Shown here piece after piece: positions 48,578-61,464 of a stretch of 64,000 bases of DNA. The position numbers and the translations under genes were made by a program. Below the pieces are notes generated by a model, which ran no database searches, was not told the DNA's origin, and worked only from the letters and a program-made list of their open reading frames with translations. The stretch comes from Ornithinimicrobium tianjinense (GTDB taxonomy: Bacteria; Actinomycetota; Actinomycetes; Actinomycetales; Dermatophilaceae): the NCBI RefSeq assembly GCF_014636495.1, contig NZ_BMEM01000002.1:1-64000 (forward strand), written 5' to 3'. Numbering within the stretch: position 1 is the stretch's first letter; every line of letters starts with the position of its first letter.

Positions 48578-48997
48578 ATGCGCGTCGCCGACCTCCTCAA
48601 GAAGAAGGGCAGCTCCGTGGTCACCCTCTCCGCGAGCGCGACCGTGGCTGATCTGCTGAACACCTTGGACGACAACAAGATCGGAGCCGTCGTCGTCGTC
48701 GACGACGACCAGGTCGTGGGGATCGTCTCCGAGCGTGACGTGGTTCATCATCTACGCGGCGGGGTGGACACGCACGCGGCCGTCGGTTCGATCATGACCG
48801 ACGAGGTCAACACGTGTGCTCCCGAGGACGAGCTCAACGACCTCGCGGCGCGGATGACCGAGGGCCGGCACCGTCACATGCCGGTCCTGCGCGACGGCTC
48901 GCTGCAGGGGATCGTCTCGATCGGCGACGTGGTCAAGGCCCGGCTGGACTCGCTCGAGGCCGAGCGCGACGTGCTCGAGGACTACCTGCGTCGGTAG
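48578..48997 (+). CDS. CBS-domain pair protein
   Basis: 139 residues: essentially two CBS motifs (residues 8-60 and 72-125), with GAVVVVDDDQVVGIVSERDVV and HMPVLRDGSLQGIVSIGDVV. Such proteins bind adenine nucleotides and act as energy sensors; the partner is unknown. TAGTTT (48567-48572) lies 5 nt before the ATG, so it is probably leaderless. Last chromosomal gene before the integrated element. Confidence 0.9.
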   Translation: MRVADLLKKKGSSVVTLSASATVADLLNTLDDNKIGAVVVVDDDQVVGIVSERDVVHHLRGGVDTHAAVGSIMTDEVNTCAPEDELNDLAARMTEGRHRHMPVLRDGSLQGIVSIGDVVKARLDSLEAERDVLEDYLRR

Positions 48998-49028: not shown

Positions 49029-49102
49029 GGGCCAGTAGCTCAGCCGGTCAGAGCAGCGGACTCATAATCCGTCGGTCCAGGGTTCAAGCCCCTGCTGGCC
49101 CA
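49029..49102 (+). tRNA. tRNA with CAT anticodon (Ile2 or Met)
   Basis: 74 nt. GGGCCAG pairs with CTGGCCC, discriminator A, D-arm GTAGCTCAGCCGGTCAGAGC, anticodon loop CTCATAA. Anticodon CAT is used by elongator Met and by lysidine-modified Ile2; the loop resembles E. coli ileX but this does not decide it. The 3' part from 49058 is the integration site of the 12.4-kb element and is supplied by the element after integration, keeping the gene whole. Confidence 0.92.
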
Positions 49103-49104
49103 CC
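49058..49104 (+). repeat. attL: 47-bp attachment repeat within the tRNA 3' end
   Basis: These 47 bases, from the anticodon stem to just past the acceptor, recur exactly at 61418-61464. The bases on both sides differ between the copies (C/T before, CGGG/AGAT after), so the match is an exact boundary. Standard tRNA-targeted tyrosine-integrase site. Confidence 0.96.
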
Positions 49105-49107
49105 CGG

Positions 49108-49136
49108 GTCCCCGCAGGTCAACGGCCTGCGGGGAC
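49108..49136. terminator. Terminator between tRNA and integrase
   Basis: A perfect 11-bp stem (GTCCCCGCAGG and its complement) with a 7-nt loop, just inside the element. It can end the tRNA transcript from the left and the integrase transcript from the right. Confidence 0.8.
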
Positions 49137-49166
49137 TTCCTCTGTCCTCGCACAACCGTGCGGCGT

Positions 49167-49185
49167 GCTAACGATCCGCTAACGA
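49167..49185. repeat. Direct repeat GCTAACGA near attL (candidate integrase arm sites)
   Basis: GCTAACGA occurs at 49167-49174 and 49178-49185, an 11-bp period, between attL and the integrase stop. Short direct repeats in this position are typical arm-type sites bound by the integrase N-terminus. Confidence 0.5.
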
Positions 49186-49191
49186 GCGCGC

Positions 49192-50349
49192 TCATGCGCC
49201 CCACACCGCCCTGCTGAACACGTCCAGGACGCGGGTGTGGTCCTCCGGGATGTGGTGGGCGTAGACGTTCAGCGTCACGCTCGCATCCTTGTGACCGAGG
49301 CGAGCCGAGACGACGTGCACCGGCACGCCCTCGCGCAGCAGGATGCTGGCATGCGTGTGGCGCACCTCGTGCAGCGTGAGCCTCGGCAGTTCCGCGCCGG
49401 CCTGGGCGCGGACAAACTGCTTGGAGGCGTAGTCGCCGAGCACCGGGGAGCCGTTCTCCCAGGTGAAGACCAGGCCCTCGGCGTCGAGGTATGCAGGGCC
49501 CCACTCCAGCCGCTCAGCGGCCTGCGACTTGCGCCAGGCACGCAGCGCGGCCAAGGTCTGTCCGTCGATCGCCACGGAGCGGCGCTCGTGGTTCTTCGGG
49601 GTGCCGTAGTGCAGCTCCTTGCCGACCTGCGTCACGGACCGCTCGACGTGCACCACCCCACCTTCGAGGTCGACCTGATCCCAGCGCAGCGCGAGGAGTT
49701 CACCTCGACGCATGCCTGTGCCGGCGGCGAGGATCCATAGCGCGGCGAACCTGTCACCCTGGTCCTCGACGTGACGGACGAAGGCCCGTAGTTGCTCGCC
49801 ATCCCAGACGGTGTGCTTCGGCTTATCGACCTTGGGTCGCTTTGTGCCCACCACGGGGTTCACTTCGAGAACGCGTTCGGTCACGGCGTCGTCGAGAGCC
49901 TTTCGTAGCACCGCCCTGGCGAACTCGACCGTCCTGGCGGACAGCGGCCTTCCGCCCTTGCCTCCGCGCTCGTAGAGCTCCCGGAAGACGGTTGACAGCC
50001 GGGACGGCGACAGTGACTGCAGGCGCTCGTGCCGCAGGTGTGGCTGCAGATAGCGCTCGATGTTGGCCCGATAGGACGCCGCCGTGGACGGCTTCAGCGA
50101 GACGGCATGTGCCTCCATCCAGGTATCAAGCCACTCCCCTACGGTCAGGGCTGCAGGAGGCACGTACGTTCCACGGTTTACGGCGTGCCGGGCGGCATCG
50201 CGAGCCTTCTTGGCGGCGGTGCGGGTTGGAAACCCCCCTACCCAGCGCGGCTTTGTCTTGCCCGTCTGGGGGTCTCGCTCGCGCACGACATACGACCAGG
50301 TCTTGCCTCGCTGGATGATGCCGTCGCGCATCTTGGCCTCGGCGCTCAC
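49192..50349 (-). CDS. int: Tyrosine site-specific integrase
   Basis: 385 residues, GTG start. N-terminal arm-binding domain (WSYVVRERDPQTGKTKPRWVGGF), SAM-like core-binding domain (about 68-160), catalytic domain with Arg214 (AAGTGMRRGELL), His327-x-x-Arg330 (LTLHEVRHTHAS), His353 (LGHKDASV) and the nucleophile Tyr363 (NVYAHH). All catalytic residues are present, so it should be active. It overlaps the upstream XRE gene as GTGA, so integration is coupled to expression of that regulator. Confidence 0.96.
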   Translation of the reverse strand: MSAEAKMRDGIIQRGKTWSYVVRERDPQTGKTKPRWVGGFPTRTAAKKARDAARHAVNRGTYVPPAALTVGEWLDTWMEAHAVSLKPSTAASYRANIERYLQPHLRHERLQSLSPSRLSTVFRELYERGGKGGRPLSARTVEFARAVLRKALDDAVTERVLEVNPVVGTKRPKVDKPKHTVWDGEQLRAFVRHVEDQGDRFAALWILAAGTGMRRGELLALRWDQVDLEGGVVHVERSVTQVGKELHYGTPKNHERRSVAIDGQTLAALRAWRKSQAAERLEWGPAYLDAEGLVFTWENGSPVLGDYASKQFVRAQAGAELPRLTLHEVRHTHASILLREGVPVHVVSARLGHKDASVTLNVYAHHIPEDHTRVLDVFSRAVWGA

Positions 50350-51002
50350 GACAGGATCCCCCTGTCGCGCAGACTCTTCTCCACCTGAGCGGACAGTTCA
50401 CGCGTCACATGGCCTCGGTAGGCCCGGGGATCAGCGTCGGAGCCCTTCAGCTCAAGCAGCGACTCGGCGCGGGCATCTCGTTCTTGATGAAGCGAGTTGC
50501 CACTGAACAGCCTCATCGCAGTCTGGATGACCTCTTGGGGAGGGACGCCCAAGCGGACAGCAAGCTCAACGTCCGCTTGCACGGGAGTTCCGAGCTTGAC
50601 GAGCGAGGCGTCGCCTTCCTCGGGTCCGAACACCAGGACTTCGGCCCCGGTGGGTGGACTCCCTCCGAACAGGCTCGCCAGGGCCTCTGCGGTCACTTGA
50701 CTTGAAGCCGGGGACAAGGCGATCTCTCGATCGCCTGGGCCGTCGTAACGCACCAACTCCGTCAGAGGCTCCTGGAAGGCGATCGCCATGAGGACGAGCT
50801 CCCCCAAGGAGACGGCGTCTCGACGACCCGACTCCAGAGCCGACAGCTTCGGGCGTGGCCATGCCAAGCCCACCTGCACCCACCTCTCCCGCAGCTCGAT
50901 CTGCGTCCACCTTCGCTCCGCTCGCAGCCGTGCCACGTTGCGCCCTACGAGGGCGCCGATGGGCAGGCCGCCTTCCGGTTCCACGTCCGTTGCCTCAGTC
51001 AC
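50346..51002 (-). CDS. XRE-type regulator coupled to the integrase
   Basis: 218 residues from the GTG at 51002. Helix-turn-helix near the N-terminus: VARLRAERRWTQIELRERW, with a recognition helix around PRPKLSALESGRRDAVSL. The C-terminal 130 residues are not recognised (LGVPPQEVIQTAMRLF suggests a helical oligomerisation part). TACCTT (51015-51010) lies 7 nt before the GTG with TTGTCA 17 bp further upstream. A longer in-frame reading to 51044 runs into the promoter. Likely the element's maintenance regulator. Confidence 0.85.
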   Translation of the reverse strand: MTEATDVEPEGGLPIGALVGRNVARLRAERRWTQIELRERWVQVGLAWPRPKLSALESGRRDAVSLGELVLMAIAFQEPLTELVRYDGPGDREIALSPASSQVTAEALASLFGGSPPTGAEVLVFGPEEGDASLVKLGTPVQADVELAVRLGVPPQEVIQTAMRLFSGNSLHQERDARAESLLELKGSDADPRAYRGHVTRELSAQVEKSLRDRGILS

Positions 51003-51009
51003 GTCCAAC

Positions 51010-51061
51010 AAGGTACATCTCATCTGTCCGGTTGACAAGACCAATCAACGTGGTCTACAAC
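51010..51061. promoter_or_regulatory. Overlapping divergent promoters of the element control region
   Basis: Minus strand: TTGTCA (51038-51033), 17-bp spacer, TACCTT (51015-51010). Plus strand: TTGACA (51032-51037), 18-bp spacer, TACAAC (51056-51061). The two -35 boxes overlap almost fully, so the promoters compete for polymerase. An inverted repeat GTTGA-N9-TCAAC (51031-51049) covers them and is a likely operator. The plan matches a phage-type decision switch. Confidence 0.65.
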
Positions 51062-51069
51062 AGTGTCAT

Positions 51070-51089
51070 CCGTTCGGAACACCGAACGG
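51070..51089. promoter_or_regulatory. Perfect palindrome in the leader of the Cro-like gene
   Basis: CCGTTCGG-AACA-CCGAACGG, an 8-bp perfect inverted repeat 33 bp before the Cro-like gene. Candidate operator for one of the two XRE proteins, or an RNA hairpin. Confidence 0.55.
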
Positions 51090-51122
51090 GTCACCTGCAG
51101 TAATCGAAACCGATGAGGAACC

Positions 51123-51344
51123 ATGACTACCAGCAAGAACCGTCCGCTGCGTGACTGGCGCGAGCGGAACCGCCTGACGCTCGATGAGGTCGCCGACTTG
51201 ACCGGGCTCTCCAAGGGCTACGTGTGCCGTTTGGAGCACGGACAGCGCACCCCGGCGCCCCTGACGAGGGTGCGCATCGCCCGCCGCCTCGGCGTGGCCG
51301 TCAGGGACATCTTTCCCGCCGCTCCCCTCCCGGAGGCGGTGTGA
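51123..51344 (+). CDS. Small Cro/XRE helix-turn-helix protein
   Basis: 73 residues, essentially one XRE domain: DWRERNRLTLDEVADLTGLS and KGYVCRLEHGQRTPAP. Divergent from the larger XRE regulator across the double promoter, so probably the opposing member of a two-repressor switch. GATGAGGAACC before ATG gives a weak ribosome site. It overlaps the excisionase as GTGA. Confidence 0.88.
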   Translation: MTTSKNRPLRDWRERNRLTLDEVADLTGLSKGYVCRLEHGQRTPAPLTRVRIARRLGVAVRDIFPAAPLPEAV

Positions 51345-51556
51345 GCGCCCACGCACAGGCCGCAACGCTGCACGGGCGGGCGACCTGTTCCATTCCTGAG
51401 GCGGGCGCCTTCCTCGGCATCGGACGTGACGCCGCTTACCGCGCCGCTGCGTCCGGAAACCTCCCGACCCTCCGCCTGGGCGGTCGGCGCCTCCTCGTCC
51501 CGGTGCCCAAGTTGCTGGCCCTGGTCGGCATCGAAGCGACAGCCACGGACCCGTAG
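51341..51556 (+). CDS. xis: Excisionase-type DNA-binding protein
   Basis: 71 residues, GTG start with GGAGG upstream. MerR/Xis-like winged helix: SIPEAGAFLGIGRDAAYRAAA then GNLPTLRLGGRRLLVPVPKL, the excisionase-family pattern. Position next to the integrase module supports a role in directing excision. Coupled to the Cro-like gene. Confidence 0.85.
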   Translation: MSAHAQAATLHGRATCSIPEAGAFLGIGRDAAYRAAASGNLPTLRLGGRRLLVPVPKLLALVGIEATATDP

Positions 51557-51614
51557 CCCGACCTCCCCACCATCCCTGCAACCGCTCAACCAGCCATACC
51601 TCTAGGAGAAACCC

Positions 51615-51920
51615 ATGACTGACACTGTTCTTCCCTTCAACGCCCACCCCGACCCGTGGTGGCGGGACTGTGCCGAGCGCGCCCTCGTTGACCTGGCGGT
51701 CTCGGGTGCCACGTTCACCATCGATGCGCTCCGCCAGCCGCCGTATTGCGTGTGGGAGCCCCAGCACCCGAGCTCGTGGGGTGCGCTCACGCAGGCCATG
51801 TTGAAGGCGAAGTACATCGAGCCCGTCGGCTTCACCACGTCCTCCAGGGCTAGTCGGCACGGGTCCGTGGTTCGCCTGTGGCGGGGCACAGTCCATGTCC
51901 GGCTGCAGGAAGTCGCCTGA
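51615..51920 (+). CDS. Hypothetical small protein of the element
   Basis: 101 residues, not recognised. TAGGAGAAACCC precedes the ATG. Two Trp-rich stretches (HPDPWWRDCAERALVDLAVSG, YCVWEPQHPSSWGALTQAML) and a basic C-terminus suggest a compact winged-helix-like fold. Followed by a strong terminator-like hairpin. Confidence 0.7.
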   Translation: MTDTVLPFNAHPDPWWRDCAERALVDLAVSGATFTIDALRQPPYCVWEPQHPSSWGALTQAMLKAKYIEPVGFTTSSRASRHGSVVRLWRGTVHVRLQEVA

Positions 51921-51930
51921 TCGCCCCCGT

Positions 51931-51963
51931 AGCGCCCCACCCCTGACGAAGGGGTGGGGCGCT
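51931..51963 (+). terminator. Hairpin terminator between element genes
   Basis: A perfect 14-bp stem (AGCGCCCCACCCCT and its complement) with loop GACGA, followed by a short CCTATTAA stretch. It separates the early control operon from the replication/restriction part. Confidence 0.78.
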
Positions 51964-51980
51964 CCTATTAAGGAACCCCC

Positions 51981-52670
51981 ATGTCGAAGTTCAACAAGTT
52001 CATCTGGCAGAAGTACCTTCGCGGAGCATCGGCCCTGACTCACGCCCAGTACCGCGTCCTCATGTCCATCTCTACCTACGCTGACGAGACCGGAGGCAAT
52101 GCTTACCCTGGCAACGAGCGCCTGGCCGCGGACGCCTGCGTTGACGAACGCACGGCACGCAGGAGTGTCAAGGTCCTCGAAGAGCAGGGTTGGTTGAAGG
52201 TCACTTACCGCGGCGGCAACTCCGTGGCCTACCGGCAGGCCAACACCTACCAGCTCACCATCCCGGAACACCTCACCGCGACTGCGGTTGATGAGGCACA
52301 GGAGGGCGCACGTGCAGCAAGGGGGGCGGCAATGCGGCCGAAGGGGGGTCGTGGTGCACGGGAAGGGGGGCCTGAGACCCCCCCACCAGATCAGTCAACA
52401 GGTCACACTGACCAGATCATCGATCATTCCGCCAACAGCAGGCGGCCACGGGCCGTCGTGGACCCGGCGTCACAGGCAGCCGCGACGGACGATGTGCCAG
52501 CTGCGGACTGGCTCGCGCTCCGCGACAACGAGGAGGCGCTCTTGGAGTGGCTAGAGGAGGGACTGGGAACGCTGTCCACTCCGGAAGAGGCGCTGGCAGA
52601 GTCCATGTGGGAGCGTGCACATCCCAAAGCCATCTTCCACAAGATCGCGAAAGATCGGAACGTCGTCTGA
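51981..52670 (+). CDS. Helix-turn-helix replication-initiator-type protein
   Basis: 229 residues. The N-terminal winged helix (FIWQKYLRGASALTHAQYRV, DACVDERTARRSVKVLEEQGWL) is of the kind found in small actinobacterial plasmid and phage replication proteins. The Gly/Arg/Pro-rich middle (about 105-150) is disordered. The C-terminal helical part may bind a partner. Replication role is inferred from family and position. AAGGAACCCCC precedes ATG. Confidence 0.7.
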   Translation: MSKFNKFIWQKYLRGASALTHAQYRVLMSISTYADETGGNAYPGNERLAADACVDERTARRSVKVLEEQGWLKVTYRGGNSVAYRQANTYQLTIPEHLTATAVDEAQEGARAARGAAMRPKGGRGAREGGPETPPPDQSTGHTDQIIDHSANSRRPRAVVDPASQAAATDDVPAADWLALRDNEEALLEWLEEGLGTLSTPEEALAESMWERAHPKAIFHKIAKDRNVV

Positions 52671-52753
52671 CAATGAGTCCTGCCGGCGGTCGTCGCACTG
52701 CCCTCGTTGGACCCCGCCGCTGGCGCCAGGAGCCCGTGGGGCAGGATTCACCC

Positions 52754-55700
52754 ATGTCGACGACGATCTACGAGGTCCTCGAGGAGCTGAGGGGCGCAGC
52801 TACGTCTGAGGCCGACAAGGGGAGCAAGCTCGAACGGCTAATGCTCTCCTACCTGCGCACCGACCCTGTGTTCGCCGACCAGTTCAGTGACGTGTGGTTG
52901 TGGCAGGACTGGCCCGGCCGAGACGGAAAGCATGACACCGGCATCGACTTGGTCGCCGTGGACCGATTGACGGGTGGCAACGTCGCGATCCAGTGCAAGT
53001 TCTACGCACCGACCTCCACGATCGGGAAGCACGACATCGACTCCTTCCTCTCCGCCTCGGGGAAGCAAGGCTTCAACCAGCGAATCATCGTCTCCACCAC
53101 AGAGAAGTGGAACGCACACGCAGAGGACGCGCTGCAAGGGCAGCAGATCCCCGTGCGGCGCATCGGGTTGGCCGACCTGGAGGCATCGGGCGTGGACTGG
53201 GGCCAGTTCACCTGGTCCGCGCCGGAGGAGTTGACGGTCAGCGATCGCAAGCGCCTGCGCCCGCACCAGCGCGAGGCGGTCGAAGCGGTCAGCGCAGGCC
53301 TGACCACAGGTGACCGGGGCAAACTGATCATGGCCTGCGGGACGGGCAAGACGTTCACCTCGCTGCGCTTGTCCGAGAGGTTGGTGGGTGCTGGCGGCTC
53401 GGTGCTGTTCCTGGTGCCCTCAATCAGTCTGCTGTCTCAGACGCTTCGGGAGTGGGCCACCGAGGCCGAACTGCCGTTGACCCCAATCGCGGTGTGCTCG
53501 GACCGCAAAGCCACCGCCCGTTCCAAGGCCACGGATGAGGACATCTCGGCCGTGGACCTGGCGCTGCCGTCTACAACCAACGTCGCGGTGCTCGAAGCCC
53601 GGCTCAACCAGGCGCTAGGGGACGACTCATCGATGACGGTGGTGTTCTCCACGTATCAATCGATCGACGTGATCGCCCAGGCCCAGTCGCAGGGTGAACT
53701 GGCTTCGTTCGACCTAATCGTCTGCGATGAAGCGCACCGAACCACTGGTGTCACCCTTGCAGGGGAAGACGAGTCAGCCTTCGTCCGTGTCCATGACGAC
53801 TCCTACTTGAAGGGTCGCAAGCGGCTCTACATGACGGCGACCCCGCGCCTCTACGACGACAGCAGCAAGGCCAAGGCGGGCCAGGCCAGCGCAGTCCTCG
53901 CGTCGATGGACGACGAGTCCATCTACGGGCCCGAGTTGCACCGGCTCTCCTTCGGAGAGGCGGTGTCCAAGGACTTGTTAACCGACTACAAGGTTCTCGT
54001 GCTGGCGGTCGACGAGGCCAGCGTGTCGCGTACCTTCCAACTGCAGCTAGCAGACGACGGCAACGAGTTGCGCTTGGACGACGCTGCGAAGATTGTCGGC
54101 TGTTGGAACGGGCTGGCCAAGCGTGGCTCAGCCGAACACTCATTCGCGTCGGATCCGGCCCCCATGCAGCGAGCCGTCGCGTTCGCCGGAACGATCAAGG
54201 ACTCCAAGCAGATTGAGTCCCTCTTCGCCCAGACGGTTGAACAGTATGCTGCGGCGCACTACCTCGAGGATGGAGAGACCGGGGAGCCGGTGTTGGCGTG
54301 CGAGATCAGGCACGTAGACGGCTCGTTCAATGCGCTGGAACGCAACACCCGCCTGGACTGGCTGCGGGCGCCCGTCCCCGACGGTACCTGCCGAATTCTG
54401 ACAAACGCCCGATGTCTGTCAGAAGGAGTGGACGTACCGGCACTGGACGCGGTGATGTTCCTGTCTCCGCGCAAGTCCGTGGTCGACATCGTCCAGTCGG
54501 TGGGCCGGGTGATGCGCAAGGCACCCGGCAAAGAATTCGGGTACATAATCCTGCCGATCGGCATCCCCGCGGGGATGACCGCCGAGGAGGCCCTGCGCGA
54601 TAACAAGAAGTACGCGGTTGTCTGGGAAGTCCTGCAGGCGCTGCGCGCCCACGACGAGCGATTCAACGCGATGGTAAACCGCATCGAACTGGTCAAGGCC
54701 CGTGACGAAAAGGTCAACGTCATCGGCGTCCCCGGTGCTGAGGACCGTGACCGCGAGAGTAGCGGTGGGCAGGGAGTGCTCCCCTTGGCGTTTCTGGACG
54801 AGTGGCGTGACGCAATCTACGCCAAAATCGTCGCCAAGGTCGGCTCCCGCCGCTACTGGCACGAGTGGGCGAAGGACATCGCCGACATCGCCTCCCGGCA
54901 CACCACCCGCATCACCGCCCTCCTCGACGGTGGCGACTACAAGGTCACCAAAGAGTTCGACACGTTTTTGCATGGCCTGCGCGGGATCCTGAACGAGGGC
55001 ATCACCCGCGACGACGCCGTCGACATGCTTGCTCAGCACCTCATCACCCGGCCCGTGTTCGAGGCCCTCTTCGCGGGCTACGCGTTCACCGAGCACAACC
55101 CCGTCGCCCAGACGATGGAGTCGATGCTGGCCGCTTTAGATGAGCACAACATTGACGACGAGAACCACTCCCTTGAAAAGTTCTACGACTCCGTTCGCAT
55201 GCGGGTCCAGGGAGTGGACAGCGCAGAGGGCCGGCAGAAGCTCATCGTCCAGCTCTACGACACCTTCTTCGCCACCGCGTTCGCCAAGACTGTCGACCGG
55301 CTCGGCATCGTCTACACGCCGGTCGAAATCGTCGACTTCATCCTTCGGTCGGCCGACGACGCACTCCGTGAGCACTTCGACCAAGGGCTGAGTGACGAGG
55401 GCGTGCACATCCTCGATGGGTTCACGGGGACCGGGACGTTCATGGTTCGTCTCCTCCAGCTCGGGCTGATCCATCCGCACGACCTGGCGCGCAAGTATTC
55501 GACCGAGCTTCATGCCAACGAGATTCTTCTACTGGCCTACTACATCGCCGCCGTCAACATCGAGACCACCTACCAAGACATCGTCCGCGGGCACCTCGAC
55601 AACAAGGCCGCCTACCAGCCCTTCCCCGGCCTAGTACTGACCGACACTTTCCAGTCTTACGAGGATAATGACACCGATGCCCTGACCGTTTTCCCCGCCA

Positions 55701-57691
55701 CCAGCAAGCGCATTGCCCGGCAGCGAGCACTACCGATCACCGTGATCGTTGGCAACCCGCCTTACTCGGCCGGACAGGACTCCGCGAATGACAACAACCC
55801 GAATGTAAGGTACCCGGGCCTCGATGCGGCAATCGCGGACGCTTATTCATCCAAACGAGGCCGAGGGGGAAACAACTCGCTGTATGACGCCTACATCCGT
55901 GCCATCCGGTGGGCAACTCTTCGACTCGGGGAGCGCGGCGTGATTGCCTACGTCACGAACGGAGGCTGGCTTGATTCGAACGTGGGCAGCCAAATGCGAC
56001 AGAGCCTGGCTACTGAGTTTAGCGACATCCACATCTACAATCTCCGCGGAAACGGACGCGTTGCTGGCGAGGCAGGTCGCGCAGAGGGCAGGCCAGTCTT
56101 CGAGTTCGCTGGCTGGGGCCCGTCTGGCCAAGAGATGAAGAGCAGCAAGGGCGGCTCACGGGCAACGATCGCCATTACTGTCTTCGTAAAGGACCCGGCT
56201 AGGTCCGGGCCGGCGCAGATCCACTATTCCCAAGTCGGGGACGGCCTGTCGGCGGGCCAGAAGATTCGCGCCGTCTCTGAAGCGCGCTCGGTAAAGAGCC
56301 TTACGGACGTGCAGCTCATCACTCCCAACGAGCACGGCGACTGGCTAAACCAACGCAGTAGCCAGTTCGAGTCATTCCTGCCCCTCGGCGTCAAGCACGA
56401 TCTCGATACCGACGGTCCAGCAATATTCGGTCTTTACGGCCGTGGCCTCGAGTCCGGCCGCGATGCGTGGGTCTACCAATCGGACCGTGAGCGCCTCGCT
56501 GACAACATCGATCGGACGATCGACGCATTCAATCGACAGGTGAAAGGTTTCGAACAGCACGTTCAAGGCAATGCTAAAAGACCGAAGGAACTGGTCGCCG
56601 GTTTCATCGACACGGATCCGCGCCATATCTCGTGGACGCTCAGCCTGAAGAATCGACTCGCCGCGCTTCGCCCCCTGAACCATGAAGGCTTTGTGGCCAC
56701 GGCCATGTACCGCCCCTTCTTTCGTCAGCATGTTAATTTCAACCGCGGCCTGATCCACATCTCCGGTCAAGTTCCGCGCTTCTTTCCGACGGCCCGGCAC
56801 TCCAATATTGGTTTTTACGCGGTCAACCCCGGTTCCTCGAAACCTTTCTCTGTCCTAGCGACTGACTCGATTCCGGATCTAGCCCTCTACGGCTCGAACG
56901 CCGGACAGTTCTTTGCCCGCTGGCGGTACGAGGCCGTCGAGGACGGCGGCCTCCTTAGTCTCGATAGCGATGACGGGGAGATCATCGACGGATATCGCAG
57001 GATCGACAACATCACGGACGACGCGCTCACTCTGTTCAGAGGCACTTACGGTGACACGATCAGCAAGGACGACATTTTCTTCTACTGCTACGGGATCCTG
57101 CACTCTCCCGACTATCGGGAGAACTACCAAGCAGACTTGAAAAAATCCTTGCCGCGCATCCCGCTTGTGACCGACCCCTCGCCATACGTCGACGCCGGCC
57201 GGCGACTGTTCGAGCTGCACCTCGGATACGAGAGCATCGCACCCCACCGGCTGGAAGGGCTCGACATTCCCGCGCCGGACGGCGAGGCTGCATACGACTT
57301 CTTTCGTGTGGAGAAAATGCGCTTCGACAAGCGGCACGATCCAGCGACCAAGAAGCACGTAGCCGACCGGTCCTCGATCATCTATAACTCGAGAATCACA
57401 CTGAGCGGAATTCCAGAGGGCGCCTATAGATACCTTCTCGGATCCCGCTCGGCGATCGAGTGGATCATCGATCGCTACCAGGTTAGTACCGACAAGGACT
57501 CCGGTATCGTGAACGACCCCAACGACTGGGCACGTGAGGTCGGCGACCCCCGATACATCCTGAATTTGTTGGCTCGGATTGTTGCCGTGAGCTTGGAGAC
57601 GATGGCCGTCGTAGATGGACTCCCTCGTCTGCGGGTGAGAGACACTCAACGGATGAACAACGTTGGTTCGGAGGATCGCAGCGTGCCGTAA
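52754..57691 (+). CDS. Single-chain type ISP restriction-modification enzyme
   Basis: 1645 residues. One polypeptide that methylates and, on unmodified DNA, translocates and cuts. An N-terminal Mrr-like nuclease carries Asp65 and Gln80-Cys-Lys82 (GIDLVAVDRLTGGNVAIQCK). The SF2 translocase has Walker A ACGTGKT (194-200), DEAH (325-328) and MTATPR. The N6-adenine methyltransferase has LDGFTGTGTF (about 887) and NPPY (1001-1004). A C-terminal target-recognition part follows (about 1100-1640). Organisation matches LlaGI/LlaBIII. The start is at MSTTIYEVLEEL; an in-frame ATG at 52673 is possible. TTA codons occur, and the C-terminal third is less GC-rich than the N-terminal part. Confidence 0.94.
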   Translation: MSTTIYEVLEELRGAATSEADKGSKLERLMLSYLRTDPVFADQFSDVWLWQDWPGRDGKHDTGIDLVAVDRLTGGNVAIQCKFYAPTSTIGKHDIDSFLSASGKQGFNQRIIVSTTEKWNAHAEDALQGQQIPVRRIGLADLEASGVDWGQFTWSAPEELTVSDRKRLRPHQREAVEAVSAGLTTGDRGKLIMACGTGKTFTSLRLSERLVGAGGSVLFLVPSISLLSQTLREWATEAELPLTPIAVCSDRKATARSKATDEDISAVDLALPSTTNVAVLEARLNQALGDDSSMTVVFSTYQSIDVIAQAQSQGELASFDLIVCDEAHRTTGVTLAGEDESAFVRVHDDSYLKGRKRLYMTATPRLYDDSSKAKAGQASAVLASMDDESIYGPELHRLSFGEAVSKDLLTDYKVLVLAVDEASVSRTFQLQLADDGNELRLDDAAKIVGCWNGLAKRGSAEHSFASDPAPMQRAVAFAGTIKDSKQIESLFAQTVEQYAAAHYLEDGETGEPVLACEIRHVDGSFNALERNTRLDWLRAPVPDGTCRILTNARCLSEGVDVPALDAVMFLSPRKSVVDIVQSVGRVMRKAPGKEFGYIILPIGIPAGMTAEEALRDNKKYAVVWEVLQALRAHDERFNAMVNRIELVKARDEKVNVIGVPGAEDRDRESSGGQGVLPLAFLDEWRDAIYAKIVAKVGSRRYWHEWAKDIADIASRHTTRITALLDGGDYKVTKEFDTFLHGLRGILNEGITRDDAVDMLAQHLITRPVFEALFAGYAFTEHNPVAQTMESMLAALDEHNIDDENHSLEKFYDSVRMRVQGVDSAEGRQKLIVQLYDTFFATAFAKTVDRLGIVYTPVEIVDFILRSADDALREHFDQGLSDEGVHILDGFTGTGTFMVRLLQLGLIHPHDLARKYSTELHANEILLLAYYIAAVNIETTYQDIVRGHLDNKAAYQPFPGLVLTDTFQSYEDNDTDALTVFPATSKRIARQRALPITVIVGNPPYSAGQDSANDNNPNVRYPGLDAAIADAYSSKRGRGGNNSLYDAYIRAIRWATLRLGERGVIAYVTNGGWLDSNVGSQMRQSLATEFSDIHIYNLRGNGRVAGEAGRAEGRPVFEFAGWGPSGQEMKSSKGGSRATIAITVFVKDPARSGPAQIHYSQVGDGLSAGQKIRAVSEARSVKSLTDVQLITPNEHGDWLNQRSSQFESFLPLGVKHDLDTDGPAIFGLYGRGLESGRDAWVYQSDRERLADNIDRTIDAFNRQVKGFEQHVQGNAKRPKELVAGFIDTDPRHISWTLSLKNRLAALRPLNHEGFVATAMYRPFFRQHVNFNRGLIHISGQVPRFFPTARHSNIGFYAVNPGSSKPFSVLATDSIPDLALYGSNAGQFFARWRYEAVEDGGLLSLDSDDGEIIDGYRRIDNITDDALTLFRGTYGDTISKDDIFFYCYGILHSPDYRENYQADLKKSLPRIPLVTDPSPYVDAGRRLFELHLGYESIAPHRLEGLDIPAPDGEAAYDFFRVEKMRFDKRHDPATKKHVADRSSIIYNSRITLSGIPEGAYRYLLGSRSAIEWIIDRYQVSTDKDSGIVNDPNDWAREVGDPRYILNLLARIVAVSLETMAVVDGLPRLRVRDTQRMNNVGSEDRSVP

Positions 57692-57949
57692 CACGCCACG
57701 AGTCGGCGACAGCTGCTGGTAGCGCAGTGTTAGCACTACCCCTTTGACCTGCGTAAATGAGTCATGGAACGGATAGGTAATCCGAGTGTCCTAGCCCGAA
57801 TTCCCCGCTTGGTGCAGGCCCTCCTCCCATGCCTGCGCGGAGAAGCCCCTTGGCCACCCTTCAGGACGGGCGTGAACCTGGCAGCATGCAAGACCAGCGT
57901 CCATTCTGGCTGCACATGAAGCCACGGCATCGCTTGCCCGTCTTGAGGG
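57692..57949. other. Intergenic, no gene seen
   Basis: 258 bp between convergent genes. A weak hairpin GGTAG...CTACC at about 57718-57742 followed by CCTTTG may end the restriction gene transcript. No convincing open frame in either direction. Confidence 0.4.
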
Positions 57950-58387
57950 TCAGCCCAAGATTCCCGCAGTAGCCATGGACGCTGCGAGACCGGCGAGCGC
58001 GTCGCGGGAGAGAACGCCAAACTGCGTGGCCGTCTTTCGAAGTGCTGAGGCATCGTCCTCGTTGTCGGCCCGCTCGGCGAGGCCTTCCAGGATGCTCACT
58101 AAGCGCTCCCTGAAGTCATCGCCGCTGGGGTGCAGCCCAGTCACGAGATAGGCAGATCCAGATAGGTCCTTGAACCTCAGGACGGCGCGACCGGCGGTGC
58201 CAAGGGTGCCCACGTAGCCGCGCCTCTCGAGCGCCTTCGCTGCGAGTTGGACCACGTCAACTTCCATGCTCAACGACTCTGCAACCGATGTCACGGTGGG
58301 CGTGGGCTCGCCGCCGTCGATACGGCGCGCCACTTCTCGTAGGACCGGCAGATCGCGGTCGAACCACACGTCATCTAGCTGCTTCAT
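57950..58387 (-). CDS. Hypothetical winged-helix-like cargo protein
   Basis: 145 residues. Not recognised. The N-terminal part (FDRDLPVLREVARRIDGGEP, TVTSVAESLSMEVDVVQLAA, KALERRGYVGTL) has the helix-turn-helix-wing order. The C-terminal part (RERLVSILEGLAERADNEDD, ALRKTATQFGVLSRDALAGL) is helical. TAGAGT (58400-58395) lies 7 nt before the ATG (leaderless). Lone minus-strand gene in the cargo, tail to tail with the restriction gene. Confidence 0.72.
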   Translation of the reverse strand: MKQLDDVWFDRDLPVLREVARRIDGGEPTPTVTSVAESLSMEVDVVQLAAKALERRGYVGTLGTAGRAVLRFKDLSGSAYLVTGLHPSGDDFRERLVSILEGLAERADNEDDASALRKTATQFGVLSRDALAGLAASMATAGILG

Positions 58388-58532
58388 GCCTGTGACTCTA
58401 CGCAACGCCAGGCCCCGGCATCCGACCCCCTTCTGACCCCTTTACTCGTCCCCAGCGGCGTCACTCTACTGAGGTAAGAAGGTCATCGGGTACCGGGAGT
58501 GGCGTGGCCCCCAGGCGTGTAGGGTCCGCCCT

Positions 58533-58697
58533 ATGGAGGGGGATGCTGCCTTGACGCGGGTTGGTTCACATCCTGGAGCCCGGCACACCGTCGCGGAGAT
58601 CTACCAAGCGTGTCTTGCCTCCGTCGGGGAACGAGCGACGCCGGGCTTCTCTAACTGGGTGATCGGTGGATCGTGGCTAGAGGAGGTGACCCGGTGA
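58533..58697 (+). CDS. Leaderless 54-residue small protein
   Basis: 54 residues, beginning MEGDAALTRVGSHPGARHTV and ending NWVIGGSWLEEVTR. TAGGGT (58520-58525) sits exactly 7 nt before the ATG, the pattern seen at many starts here. Its TGA overlaps the GTG start of the DUF2510 gene (GTGA), so the two are coupled. No membrane segment. Not recognised; could be a real small protein or a coupling leader peptide. Confidence 0.6.
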   Translation: MEGDAALTRVGSHPGARHTVAEIYQACLASVGERATPGFSNWVIGGSWLEEVTR

Positions 58698-59494
58698 CTC
58701 CGCAATTCCCGCACGCAGGGTGGTACGACGACCCGCTGGACACCGGCAGCATGCGGTTCTGGGATGGTCGGCAGTGGACTCAGCACACCAGTCCGAAGCA
58801 CTCTACGACCGTTAACACGGCTGGGCGCGCTGCGGTCCCGGGCCCTGACGTGTCTCAGGGGCAGCGCCACGACCGGCAGGACACGGAGTCGGCCCGCCGG
58901 CACGGCCAGGAGCAACAGCACACTCCGAGAATGAATAGCGCCGAGCAGCATCGCCACTTAAGCGACCCCTTGAGTGCCGACTCGCCCGATGATCGGCCGC
59001 CGAACAGGGTGGTGAAGCTCCTAGCCGTCTTAACCGGGATAATGCTCCTCGCTGCGGTCCTGCCTTTGAACTCCGATTACTACCTCGGGTTACGTTGGAT
59101 GGTCATGGTCGTCAGCCTGCTTGTGGTTTGGGATGGGTGGCAGGCGAGCCAGGCGGACGGCGAGGGTCGACGATCCTGGCTCTTGATGGCCTCCCCCGTG
59201 TTACTGCTCCTGGCAATCCTTTTCAATCCGATCTACCCAGTGTGGATGGAAAGGGCGCAATGGCGGCCGGTCAACATCCTCGGTGGACTCATCCTGTTGC
59301 AGTACCCACTCATCTCATTCGCGCAGGTAGGTCAGACCGATGGAAGCAAGGTGTGGGTAGGGATTCGTGGGTACGGGGTGATGTGCCTCGTGGCCGCGGC
59401 TATGTCCTTCGGGGTCATAGTGTCTAGTCCAGATCCCCTGATGGAGGATGTCGACATAGCCTGCGATTCGCCGCTTCCCGGTGAGTGCCCCTGA
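58694..59494 (+). CDS. DUF2510 membrane protein
   Basis: 266 residues. The N-terminal DUF2510 motif is AGWYDDPLDTGSMRFWDGRQ followed by WTQHT. A polar His/Gln/Arg-rich linker (about 40-100) leads to about five hydrophobic segments (LLAVLTGIMLLAAVLPL, WMVMVVSLLVVW, WLLMASPVLLLLAIL, NILGGLILLQYPL, YGVMCLVAAAMSFGVIV). GTG at 58694 has GGAGGT 6 nt upstream. Function unknown; the soluble motif probably faces the cytoplasm. Codons are less GC-rich than in the flanks. Confidence 0.82.
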   Translation: MTPQFPHAGWYDDPLDTGSMRFWDGRQWTQHTSPKHSTTVNTAGRAAVPGPDVSQGQRHDRQDTESARRHGQEQQHTPRMNSAEQHRHLSDPLSADSPDDRPPNRVVKLLAVLTGIMLLAAVLPLNSDYYLGLRWMVMVVSLLVVWDGWQASQADGEGRRSWLLMASPVLLLLAILFNPIYPVWMERAQWRPVNILGGLILLQYPLISFAQVGQTDGSKVWVGIRGYGVMCLVAAAMSFGVIVSSPDPLMEDVDIACDSPLPGECP

Positions 59495-60007
59495 TAGACA
59501 GGGGAGCCTCAGACTCGTAAGCCGACGACTCAAGTCAGACCTGCGTTTCTTGCGGTCCCCAATCGCGTGCGCCCGCGAGAACATAGGGGGACGCAGATGA
59601 TGGGTGCGAGATGTCAGTCGCCGTTGCAGGTCTGTGGCATGGCGGTGCGACCCGGCGGACGGACGCCGCAGTAACTGCAGAGACCTGCGGAAAGCACCGC
59701 GCTGAGTGTCACAAAGTTGCGGATCACCAGAGGCGTCGGCCCTGGCGCATTAGCTCAGCGTTGCATGTGTCGTCCAGGCTTTGACAACATGTTGACTGTG
59801 CTGACGTACCGGCTGAGCCATGGGATCGGGCCGTTGGAGAGAGTCTGAGCGGCCTGCAGGGTGGAGTGATGCCAGGTGTGAGCGGTTCCCGAACATAGGA
59901 CAGCCAACGTGGTGGTGCAGGGCTCGTCGAGCACTCTCGCTGACTCGGCGGTCGCTTGGACCCCCCACGCCCCTGCACCCGATCAGACATCCCGTTACGG
60001 TGTCCAC
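59495..60007. other. 513-bp intergenic stretch of the element
   Basis: No credible gene on either strand. A perfect 8-bp inverted repeat GCAGGTCT...AGACCTGC flanks about 40 bp near 59628-59684. TTGACA occurs around 59781 without a good -10. A TACGGT box at 59996-60001 belongs to the next gene. Otherwise nothing is seen. Confidence 0.5.
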
Positions 60008-60406
60008 ATGACGCTCGCCGACGACGCCCTCGTCGTGAGGGGTGGCATCGCTCGTGATGCCTCGTCGGTGGCAGACCGGGTCGAGGACGCAATAGAGTCG
60101 GATGGTGTCGCGGTGTTGTCGGTGTATGCGGGCCAGGCCAGCCCCACGGAGGACCAGAGCGACCTGTTGCTCCGAATCTGCCGGACGGCTGACCTGCGGC
60201 ATGGGCAGGTCCAGACCGCACGGGCGGGCGACCTCCGTGCGGCTGGTTTCGAGATCCGCCACGAGGTGGCTGACGGCGAGCAGCCCAATCACTACCATGT
60301 GTATTTTCAGGTTCCGATGACAGAGTTACAGGCGCAGGTCTTCATCGACTGCTTCGATGGGCCGAAGCCTAACCCCAGGCCAGCCGAGGAGAGGAAGGCA
60401 CGATGA
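60008..60406 (+). CDS. Hypothetical cargo protein, first of a coupled trio
   Basis: 132 residues, not recognised. Mixed alpha/beta: ASSVADRVEDAIESDGVAVL and LLLRICRTADLRHGQVQTAR are helical; NHYHVYFQVPMTELQAQVFI is a strand-helix near the end; the last 20 residues are basic and Pro-rich. TACGGT lies 6 nt before the ATG (leaderless). The stop overlaps the next gene as ATGA. Confidence 0.72.
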   Translation: MTLADDALVVRGGIARDASSVADRVEDAIESDGVAVLSVYAGQASPTEDQSDLLLRICRTADLRHGQVQTARAGDLRAAGFEIRHEVADGEQPNHYHVYFQVPMTELQAQVFIDCFDGPKPNPRPAEERKAR

Positions 60407-60741
60407 TCCGCATCCCAGTGGACTTCAATGCTCGAGCCCACGACGGGCTGGTGGTTGCCAGCATGCGCAGGATCCAAGGTGAGGTGCAGGTCGGCGACGA
60501 GGTCCTCGCCGACGCCCGTGAAGACGAGATGGTCTACATGGCACGCGTCGTGGAGATCGACGGACGCAAGGTGTACCTCGACGTGGACTGGACTCGCAAC
60601 CTCGCTCAGGAGCCCCTCACAGTGCTGCTGATGAGCGCAGCCCCCTCCCTCTCCCGAGGGACCACGACCACCACATTGACGCCCGTACCCATGAGGTACA
60701 CGCCCGTGCATCACACCGTTCGACTGCACGTGCCAGCGTGA
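60403..60741 (+). CDS. Hypothetical cargo protein, second of a coupled trio
   Basis: 112 residues, not recognised. A beta-rich small domain (GLVVASMRRIQGEVQVGDEV, ARVVEIDGRKVYLDVDW) is followed by a Ser/Thr-rich tail (SAAPSLSRGTTTTTLTPVP). The alternating pattern resembles a small barrel. It overlaps both neighbours (ATGA at its start, GTGA at its end), so the three products are made together. Confidence 0.7.
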   Translation: MIRIPVDFNARAHDGLVVASMRRIQGEVQVGDEVLADAREDEMVYMARVVEIDGRKVYLDVDWTRNLAQEPLTVLLMSAAPSLSRGTTTTTLTPVPMRYTPVHHTVRLHVPA

Positions 60742-61172
60742 AACTGACCTTACTTCTGGCCGACTCGGCGCAAGAGGCACAGGGCAAGGTGCACGCCCTT
60801 GGTCTCGGATGGACTGCCATCGGCACGCCGACCTCTCCGATGGCGCTCGTCGTGTTGCTCGACGTTGACTGGGATGAAACGAACCGGGACATCGCGCTAC
60901 ACATCGAACTTGTCGATGCGGACGGACACCTCGTCACAGTGCCCGGGCCGTTCGGTGATCAGCCCCTGACGCTGGACGCCACTGCACAGGCTGGACGACC
61001 TCCGGGGATGCCACGAGGTGCCGCGGTTCGGCTGCCCCTGACGCTGAACGTCAGCGGGGGGCTACCGCTGGTCGCTGGCCAAAGGTACGAATGGAGAGCA
61101 ACGCTGAACGGCCAAGCCGACGCAGCCTGGGCACAGTCGTTCCACGTCTTGGCAAGCCCGCCGCATGAGTGA
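60738..61172 (+). CDS. DUF6941-like protein, third of a coupled trio
   Basis: 144 residues, GTG start. KLTLLLADSAQEAQGKVHAL and GWTAIGTPTSPMALVVLLDV match the pattern I associate with DUF6941, a small beta-sandwich family of unknown role. VSGGLPLVAGQRYEWRATLN is the late conserved strand pair. Last gene of the element before attR; 245 bp follow without a gene. Confidence 0.75.
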   Translation: MKLTLLLADSAQEAQGKVHALGLGWTAIGTPTSPMALVVLLDVDWDETNRDIALHIELVDADGHLVTVPGPFGDQPLTLDATAQAGRPPGMPRGAAVRLPLTLNVSGGLPLVAGQRYEWRATLNGQADAAWAQSFHVLASPPHE

Positions 61173-61417
61173 ATACGGTAGGCGCGGGGCCGTCACTTCC
61201 TAAGCCTGTGCTTCACGCATCAAGTGGGTCTTCTAGCGGGCCGCGCACCCGGGCGTGCACGCCAGCCTGGAGACATCACATGTCAAGACGGGCCTGCTAT
61301 CGCTTTGCTACGCCACTGCCGAGAACCAACCCGGATTCGATCGCAGGGCGGAGTTCCTGATGCCGCTTGAAGCCGACGGGCTAGGCTCCTGACCGACAGG
61401 ACAGGATCAGCCGTGTT
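61173..61417. other. Intergenic before attR, no gene seen
   Basis: 245 bp between the last cargo gene and attR. Open frames here are short and lack ribosome sites. I see no second integrase or tRNA remnant beyond the att repeat. Confidence 0.5.
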
Positions 61418-61464
61418 GGACTCATAATCCGTCGGTCCAGGGTTCAAGCCCCTGCTGGCCCACC
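61418..61464 (+). repeat. attR: 47-bp copy of the tRNA 3' end
   Basis: Exact copy of 49058-49104, from the anticodon-stem GGACTCATAATCC to the acceptor end. It lacks the 5' half of a tRNA, so it is not a gene; it marks the right end of the element and the original chromosomal tRNA 3' end. Confidence 0.96.

Follow-up and report, generated by a model that had tools for sequence, protein, structure and literature searches.

Phage-inducible chromosomal islands (PICIs) have been screened for by means of four features, namely an integrase, a replication module and a master regulator in a conserved order, the absence of structural and lytic genes, a size of 12-15 kb, and an att site never used by prophages (PMC6092414). 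In Mycobacterium, candidate PICIs including phiRv1/phiRv2 were sought by the joint presence of an integrase and a major capsid gene, and with SatelliteFinder (PMC10654092), while a survey of actinobacterial prophages described many small elements that could be satellites (PMC10023795). The phage-inducible chromosomal minimalist islands (PICMIs) of Vibrionaceae indicate that very small satellites devoid of capsid remodeling genes exist, some of them carrying restriction-modification (R-M) systems (PMC10803314). The genes tmp and tac are said to occur in all phage-inducible chromosomal island-like elements (PLEs) of Vibrio cholerae, and chimeric tails containing the satellite's own tape measure were shown for PLE11; according to the same paper, a tape measure had not been reported from other satellites before, while putative tmp genes of PLE-like elements and of capsid-forming PICIs appear in one of its figure legends (PMC12987554). 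Here, we analyzed a 64,000-nucleotide stretch of the Ornithinimicrobium tianjinense genome (contig NZ_BMEM01000002.1, positions 1 to 64,000; hereafter the window), which harbors a 12.4-kb element inserted in a tRNA-Met gene. We give a probability of roughly 0.6 to the reading that this is a complete phage-derived integrative element, i.e. a PICI-like satellite that would depend on a helper phage and that carries a putative defense cargo. It adds one more case to a type of element already known and introduces no new principle.

The target gene was identified by ARAGORN, in agreement with Rfam, as a tRNA-Met with anticodon CAT. A repeat search returned an exact 47-nt direct repeat that corresponds to the last 47 bases of this tRNA; the two copies lie 12,360 bases apart, bracketing 12.36 kb, and the tRNA remains whole at the left end (Table 1). 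Such a repeat is far beyond chance. Both the exact att repeats and the complete element in a CAT tRNA gene, as claimed by a first-pass annotation made from the letters alone, were thus recovered. Within its own genome, the tRNA-Met sequence matches three places at E ≤ 0.001: the gene itself, its 47-bp copy and, at 75%, a second tRNA-Met(CAT) located on a different contig. The G+C content is 63.6% in the element, versus 72.6% in the part of the window on its left and 67.5% in that on its right. A 21-nt inverted repeat (95%, 48890-48910 / 54161-54181), possibly due to chance, links the CBS-domain gene preceding the tRNA to the largest gene of the element.

The corresponding locus was sought in a set of 31 genomes including that of the window, the relatives being other species of the same genus. 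The tRNA-Met locus was found at 92-100% identity in 29 of the 30 relatives, the remaining one giving a weak match only. With all loci oriented alike, a gene for a glutamate-type ABC transporter lies 73-187 bp past tRNA-Met in 19 of these 29 loci, and a CBS-domain gene precedes the tRNA in 17 of the 19. The same transporter gene lies past the right repeat in the window, and removal of the element in silico leaves a tRNA-transporter gap of 78 bp, compared to 77 and 73 bp in the two relatives with an identical tRNA-Met (G011 and G018). The first-pass annotation had named the uninterrupted locus of relatives as a test of its own proposal, and the junction, intact in 19 of 29 loci, brings no refutation. 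Among the other ten loci, eight have the transporter on the opposite side, one (G009, Ornithinicoccus halotolerans, assigned to the same genus by the grouping of the genome set) carries a sister integrase 76% identical to that of the window, and one (G022) shows neither neighbor in view; the ~20 kb past tRNA-Met were read for seven of the ten and contain no match to the integrase of the window. The locus of G024 lies at a contig end. In G025, one of those with the transporter on the opposite side, the tRNA end recurs as a 45-bp repeat (96%) at a distance of 3.6 kb, and a piece of a different integrase is present. These genomes directly show an insertion flanked by exact copies of the tRNA-Met 3' part, a tRNA left whole and a site that is empty in relatives; an integrative element at tRNA-Met is as good as certain.

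Genes were called with a simple custom script and not with a standard gene finder; start positions may be wrong. The 12 proteins called in the element were all scanned in Pfam and PHROGs, ten of them in NCBIfam and seven in PADLOC. The residues usually counted as catalytic in tyrosine integrases are R, K, HxxR, H and Y; all are invariant across the four closest integrases, and the integrase gene of the window is intact. The end of the repressor-like gene overlaps the start of the integrase gene, and a Cro-like gene diverges from it on the other strand. The excisionase-like protein, scanned as a longer frame, falls under the cut-offs of Pfam HTH_17 and NCBIfam "excise", and relatives at E ≤ 1.2e-08 occur in six of the eight related loci compared. 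The intact integrase with its full catalytic set, an excisionase-like gene and the divergent switch announced by the first-pass annotation all stand, the repressor assignment being weak. A simple scan for promoters and terminators returned about as many as shuffled sequences give, or fewer.

The element may still excise, a possibility strengthened by the arm-type repeats that its two ends have in common with sister elements (see below). The identity of the att copies and the integrity of the recombination genes point to mobility that is recent or has been maintained, which argues against a stable genomic island whose mobility would be over and in which selection would act on the R-M cargo only. 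We regard such an island as very improbable, even though the R-M enzyme, encoded by the largest gene of the element, is intact and no close copy of the integrase was found in 186 family genomes (best match 76%). Order- and class-wide searches (396 and 394 genomes) at E ≤ 1e-110 retrieved the integrase of the window's own genome only and add little, since known carriers did not show up in those samples. Scans of viral contigs gave one integrase, 26% identical, and no relative of the winged-helix-like protein.

The early region resembles that of phages. Relatives of the 101-aa protein occur in 31 phage records, 29 of them from Arthrobacter, and the region of phage TripleJ that carries one runs from an integrase gene through HTH (helix-turn-helix) and repressor genes and a divergent HTH gene to early genes. 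For the O-like replication initiator, phage records gave nothing at E 1e-5; partial relatives of it, 28.6% and 29% identical, are found on two actinobacterial plasmids. A second small element, of about 8.1 kb between 68-bp repeats (93%), was observed in Knoellia koreensis (L060:7255-15427), with genes for an integrase, an excisionase-like protein, an O-like initiator, a major head protein and an HNH endonuclease; its initiator is the sole match (E 3.4e-11) to that of the window in 184 family genomes besides the window's own.

In line with the first-pass annotation, no virion, lysis, relaxase or FtsK/SpoIIIE gene was recognized among the element's proteins with Pfam and PHROGs (12/12) or NCBIfam (10/12). 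This bears on a second alternative, an integrated plasmid or a mobilizable element akin to actinomycete integrative and conjugative elements (AICEs), moved by the transfer machinery of another element. AICEs, as described in PMC3218068, share with the window element a tRNA target, Int/Xis and a replication initiator, and the plasmid-borne relatives of the initiator point the same way; however, AICEs have Tra, whereas neither a FtsK/SpoIIIE Tra nor a relaxase appears in the Pfam scans of the element, and its replication initiator is of the phage O-like type. Of the AICE replication proteins RepSA, RepAM and Prim-Pol, the latter two gave no Pfam match among the element proteins; RepSA, a profile of that study's own, was not searched for. 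We consider this alternative improbable. The first-pass annotation had left mobilization by a phage or a plasmid in view; the former is favored by the phage-like early genes and by sister elements that carry a few virion-assembly genes.

Set against the PICI features listed above (PMC6092414), the element displays three of the four: the order of integrase, replication module and master regulator (with the weak repressor call), the lack of recognized structural or lytic genes, and a size of about 12-15 kb, with 12,360 bases between att copies. As to the fourth, no full prophage was found at tRNA-Met in the six elements compared, two of which are cut by contig ends and two of which carry terminase genes. 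PICIs, as described there, further resemble the window element by their regulators, excision functions, own replication module and defense-type accessory genes; unlike them, it has no recognized TerS (also lacking in some PICIs) or capsid-redirecting gene, its host is actinobacterial and it has no known helper. The Mycobacterium candidates (PMC10654092) are likewise small and actinobacterial, those shown with tyrosine integrases lying at tRNA genes, but the element differs from their capsid-based definition as it has no recognized capsid gene. The PICMIs, according to PMC10803314, combine a minimal integrase, an AlpA-type excision factor and a replication gene with accessory defense including R-M; they differ in sitting next to fis, in their Vibrionaceae hosts and in a core primase (DUF3987/DUF5906 models) in place of an O-like initiator.

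In the PICI-like scenario, the integrase would have joined the 47-bp attP core to tRNA-Met, binding paired TGCTA repeats on both arms, and the repressor would keep the element silent. Relief of repression, probably by a helper phage, would allow the Cro/Xis/O-like operon to drive excision and replication, and the excised circle, from an element with no recognized capsid, terminase or tail genes, would be packaged by the helper. In the integrated state, the type ISP enzyme would methylate host DNA and cut unmodified invading phage DNA.

Several points weigh against this interpretation. The helper phage is not known, and the window's own genome has no match to Phage_capsid (PF05065) or Phage_portal (PF04860), the only two families sought there. 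Neither a small terminase nor a pac/cos site was recognized in the element, and a close copy of it in a second genome, which would be a sign of recent movement, was not found. Lastly, terminase genes are present in two sister elements, which keeps a history of prophage decay in play. The main rival is a temperate-phage remnant that lost its late genes, kept its integration and early region and gained a defense cargo, and that may excise without being transferred. The match of its early genes to phage early regions, the late genes scattered over sister loci and the apparently interrupted terminase gene of one sister element would all fit a remnant. Genes for capsid, terminase, portal, tail and lysis, expected of an intact temperate prophage, were not recognized in the element. 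Against decay, no broken phage gene was recognized either, the called genes being complete and without any match to late-gene families (intergenic DNA was not separately searched); a compact size recurs in the sister elements of other species, with 14.3, 9.7 and 6.9 kb between att copies, and arm sites at both ends are common to them. On balance, a remnant appears unlikely.

Three species, Ornithinicoccus halotolerans, Knoellia koreensis and Intrasporangium chromatireducens, have integrases 70-76% identical to that of the window at this same tRNA, as do two metagenome-assembled genomes (MAGs) with integrases 67% and 53% identical. Two integrases 64% identical sit at tRNA-Arg, and the more distant ones that have a tRNA nearby are at other tRNAs. 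The Knoellia element (L074:702-15016) spans 14.27 kb between exact 48-bp repeats, and four of its genes have counterparts in the window element, namely those for the integrase, the excisionase, the 101-aa protein and the winged-helix protein. PHROGs scans covered 22 of the 25 genes called in it, all but the first three of these four. Clear virion matches were limited to two proteins, a chaperone for tail assembly (PHROG 3860, 8.5e-16) and a tape measure of 911 aa (PHROG 7025, 2.5e-18); the best-ranked tape measures in phage records are 27% identical to the latter. For two small HTH proteins, the best matches are to excisionase families, with weaker ones to those of small terminases (1.6e-4, 4.2e-4). 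By analogy with the PLEs, this element may build chimeric tails and constitutes another candidate tape-measure satellite. The likeness to PLEs as described in PMC12987554 concerns this sister only and lies in the pairing of tail chaperone with tape measure in an element that lacks a full set of tail genes; PLE11 also encodes a baseplate hub, and the window element has neither chaperone nor tape measure.

The Jatrophihabitans element carries a large terminase, a tail fiber and two winged-helix genes, its second att copy not being on the contig, and the Actinomycetales MAG element (9.66 kb between 94% identical repeats) has a terminase piece and a primase/polymerase. The Ornithinicoccus element measures 6.87 kb between att copies, with no virion match among its five called genes besides integrase and excisionase, while the Intrasporangium element, cut by a contig end, contains a primase/polymerase. 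Two further observations were made at such loci. In Ornithinicoccus halotolerans (L057:6025-17345), the whole tRNA is followed by two partial copies, which suggests that two insertions took place side by side; a TIR-domain ATPase and a NOV_C protein are encoded in the second of these stretches. At L084:1733-2531, a large-terminase piece, apparently interrupted, lies beside a 28-nt direct repeat with copies 61 bases apart.

Inside the ends of the window element, read next to those of three sister elements, we noted a tandem repeat, TGCTA(A/T/C)(C/G)G-N3-(T/C)GCTA, whose copies in the window stand 61 bp inward of attL and 103 bp inward of attR. When relaxed to YGCTA-N6-YGCTA, the pattern has three occurrences in the window, all within the element (expected 0.04; none of 100 shuffles reaches three), and was absent from both the remaining 51.6 kb and 320.6 kb of partly overlapping control loci. 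Counting the window element, the attL-side copy is present in all six tRNA-Met elements, 58-62 bases from the core, and the attR-side copy in all four with both ends visible, 101-113 bases from it. The pattern was drawn from six copies (both ends in the window and in Knoellia, attL in Ornithinicoccus and Intrasporangium), which are hence not independent of it; independent copies are those of the Ornithinicoccus attR, the Jatrophihabitans attL and both ends of the Actinomycetales MAG element. At more distant integrase loci (40-49% identity), the pattern was found in 3 of 11. From their place and spacing, we infer that the TGCTA pairs are integrase arm sites. The GCAGGTCA motif, with eight occurrences in the window versus 3.07 expected, is not rare and was therefore not used as evidence. 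A composite of GCAGGTCA and a TGCTA pair, both of which are found near attL, recurs between genes inside the elements of four loci. A 20-nt repeat (60962/61034), initially considered as an arm site, was dropped because both copies lie within one coding gene.

Two points exceed the routine, namely an arm-site architecture common to the sister elements and the presence, in one of these, of a tape measure together with a chaperone. A tentative and rather doubtful idea is that the window element belongs to an undescribed actinobacterial satellite lineage, defined by a tRNA-Met integrase and by TGCTA arm pairs whose spacing is fixed, three of the six members also having a winged-helix gene. Such a lineage would swap helper-directed or defense modules, i.e. 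the Knoellia tape measure and chaperone (chimeric tails), the Jatrophihabitans terminase and tail fiber, and the ISP enzyme of the window, and module exchange would be marked by the arm-type site in the interior, which is found where modules meet. No description of it was present among the literature matches listed for actinobacterial satellites and satellite tape measures, subscription papers being mostly outside that search.

The defense cargo proposed by the first-pass annotation is indeed an intact type ISP R-M enzyme, with the Mrr nuclease, SF2 ATPase, coupler, methyltransferase and ISP recognition domain all found on a single chain. The methylase match in Pfam is below cut-off, this region being supported by the NPPY motif and by alignment to a PDB entry: residues 19-1629 align with LlaBIII (PDB 4xqk). 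The nuclease, Walker A, DEAH, GTG and NPPY motifs are in place. It is a probable anti-virus restriction enzyme, which would be expected to cleave DNA in an ATP-dependent manner following convergent translocation, as is characteristic of type ISP enzymes. The Lla type ISP enzymes are plasmid-borne, whereas that of the window rides an integrative element. LlaBIII and LlaGI (4xqk, 5ffj) have the same domain order, from the Mrr nuclease through the helicase-like ATPase, coupler and methyltransferase to the recognition domain. Near-identical copies of the whole element were absent from phage records, and plasmids gave only short matches to the ISP gene, in four records. An 11-kb "Listeria phage" record (L108, OR846882.1) with an ISP enzyme 41% identical was set aside as a probable plasmid contig, given that its open reading frames, read by eye, include what we take to be a resolvase-like gene, a plasmid-type replication protein-like gene and two copies of a 226-aa transposase-like gene.

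The 145-aa winged-helix-like protein gave a predicted model with a mean pLDDT (predicted local distance difference test) of 73, for which Foldseek returned weak MarR-like matches only (best E 1.3e-03, TM-scores about 0.3-0.4), so that it could be called at most DNA-binding-like. Besides this gene, five genes of the element have no assigned function. Relatives of the DUF6941 protein occur in three other family genomes, the element's neighboring genes being absent from the stretches read around them.

Table 1. Positions of the element's features in the window, and of related features at sister loci (prefixed L).
Feature	Position	Strand	Basis or remark
tRNA-Met (CAT), target gene, whole at attL	49029..49104	+	ARAGORN, Rfam
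attL core, 47 bp	49058..49104	+	exact repeat
Arm-type repeat, attL side (TGCTAACG-N3-CGCTAACG)	49166..49185	+	pattern search; putative role
Tyrosine integrase, 385 aa	49192..50349	-	Pfam PF00589 1.6e-24; PHROG 1
Repressor-like protein, at most 232 aa (212 aa with the start called by the script)	50346..51044	-	weak HTH_3/HTH_31 below cut-off; PHROG 3 repressor 0.0024
Cro-like XRE HTH protein, 73 aa, divergent from repressor	51123..51344	+	HTH_3 6.8e-09
Excisionase-like HTH_17 protein, 71 aa	51341..51556	+	Pfam/NCBIfam below cut-off; relatives
Early protein, 101 aa	51615..51920	+	PHROG 38279 3e-08; relatives in Arthrobacter and Rhodococcus phages
Phage O-like replication initiator, 229 aa (HTH_36)	51981..52670	+	Pfam HTH_36 1.3e-11; PHROG 391 5.2e-14
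Type ISP restriction-modification enzyme, 1645 aa	52754..57691	+	Pfam Type_ISP_C 1.7e-94, ISP_coupler, Mrr_cat_2, ResIII
Third, internal arm-type repeat	57716..57735	-	beside GCAGGTCA motif 57745-57752
Composite of GCAGGTCA and TGCTA pair	57716-57752; L074:6599-6640; L059:883-924; L082:3473-3514
Winged-helix-like protein, 145 aa	57950..58387	-	relatives in two sister elements, E 3.2e-14 to 4.5e-13
DUF2510 + DUF6804 protein, 266 aa	58694..59494	+	Pfam
134-aa protein, no assigned function	60002..60406	+	script's longer frame starts 59909
112-aa protein, no assigned function	60403..60741	+	script call; PHROGs, Pfam scanned
DUF6941 protein, 144 aa	60738..61172	+	Pfam
Arm-type repeat, attR side (TGCTATCG-N3-TGCTACGC)	61295..61314	+	pattern search; putative role
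attR core, 47 bp	61418..61464	+	exact repeat
Knoellia tail chaperone and tape measure	L074:9713-12835		PHROGs

The arm-site signature, with its fixed spacing, provides a way to find and delimit such elements. The large Mycobacterium satellite survey, inasmuch as it relied on an integrase and a capsid gene (PMC10654092), passes over elements like that of the window because no capsid gene is recognized in them. The Knoellia sister suggests that tail takeover via replacement of the tape measure may extend beyond the satellites where it has been seen, and the window element itself represents a plausible carrier spreading a type ISP restriction system between strains.

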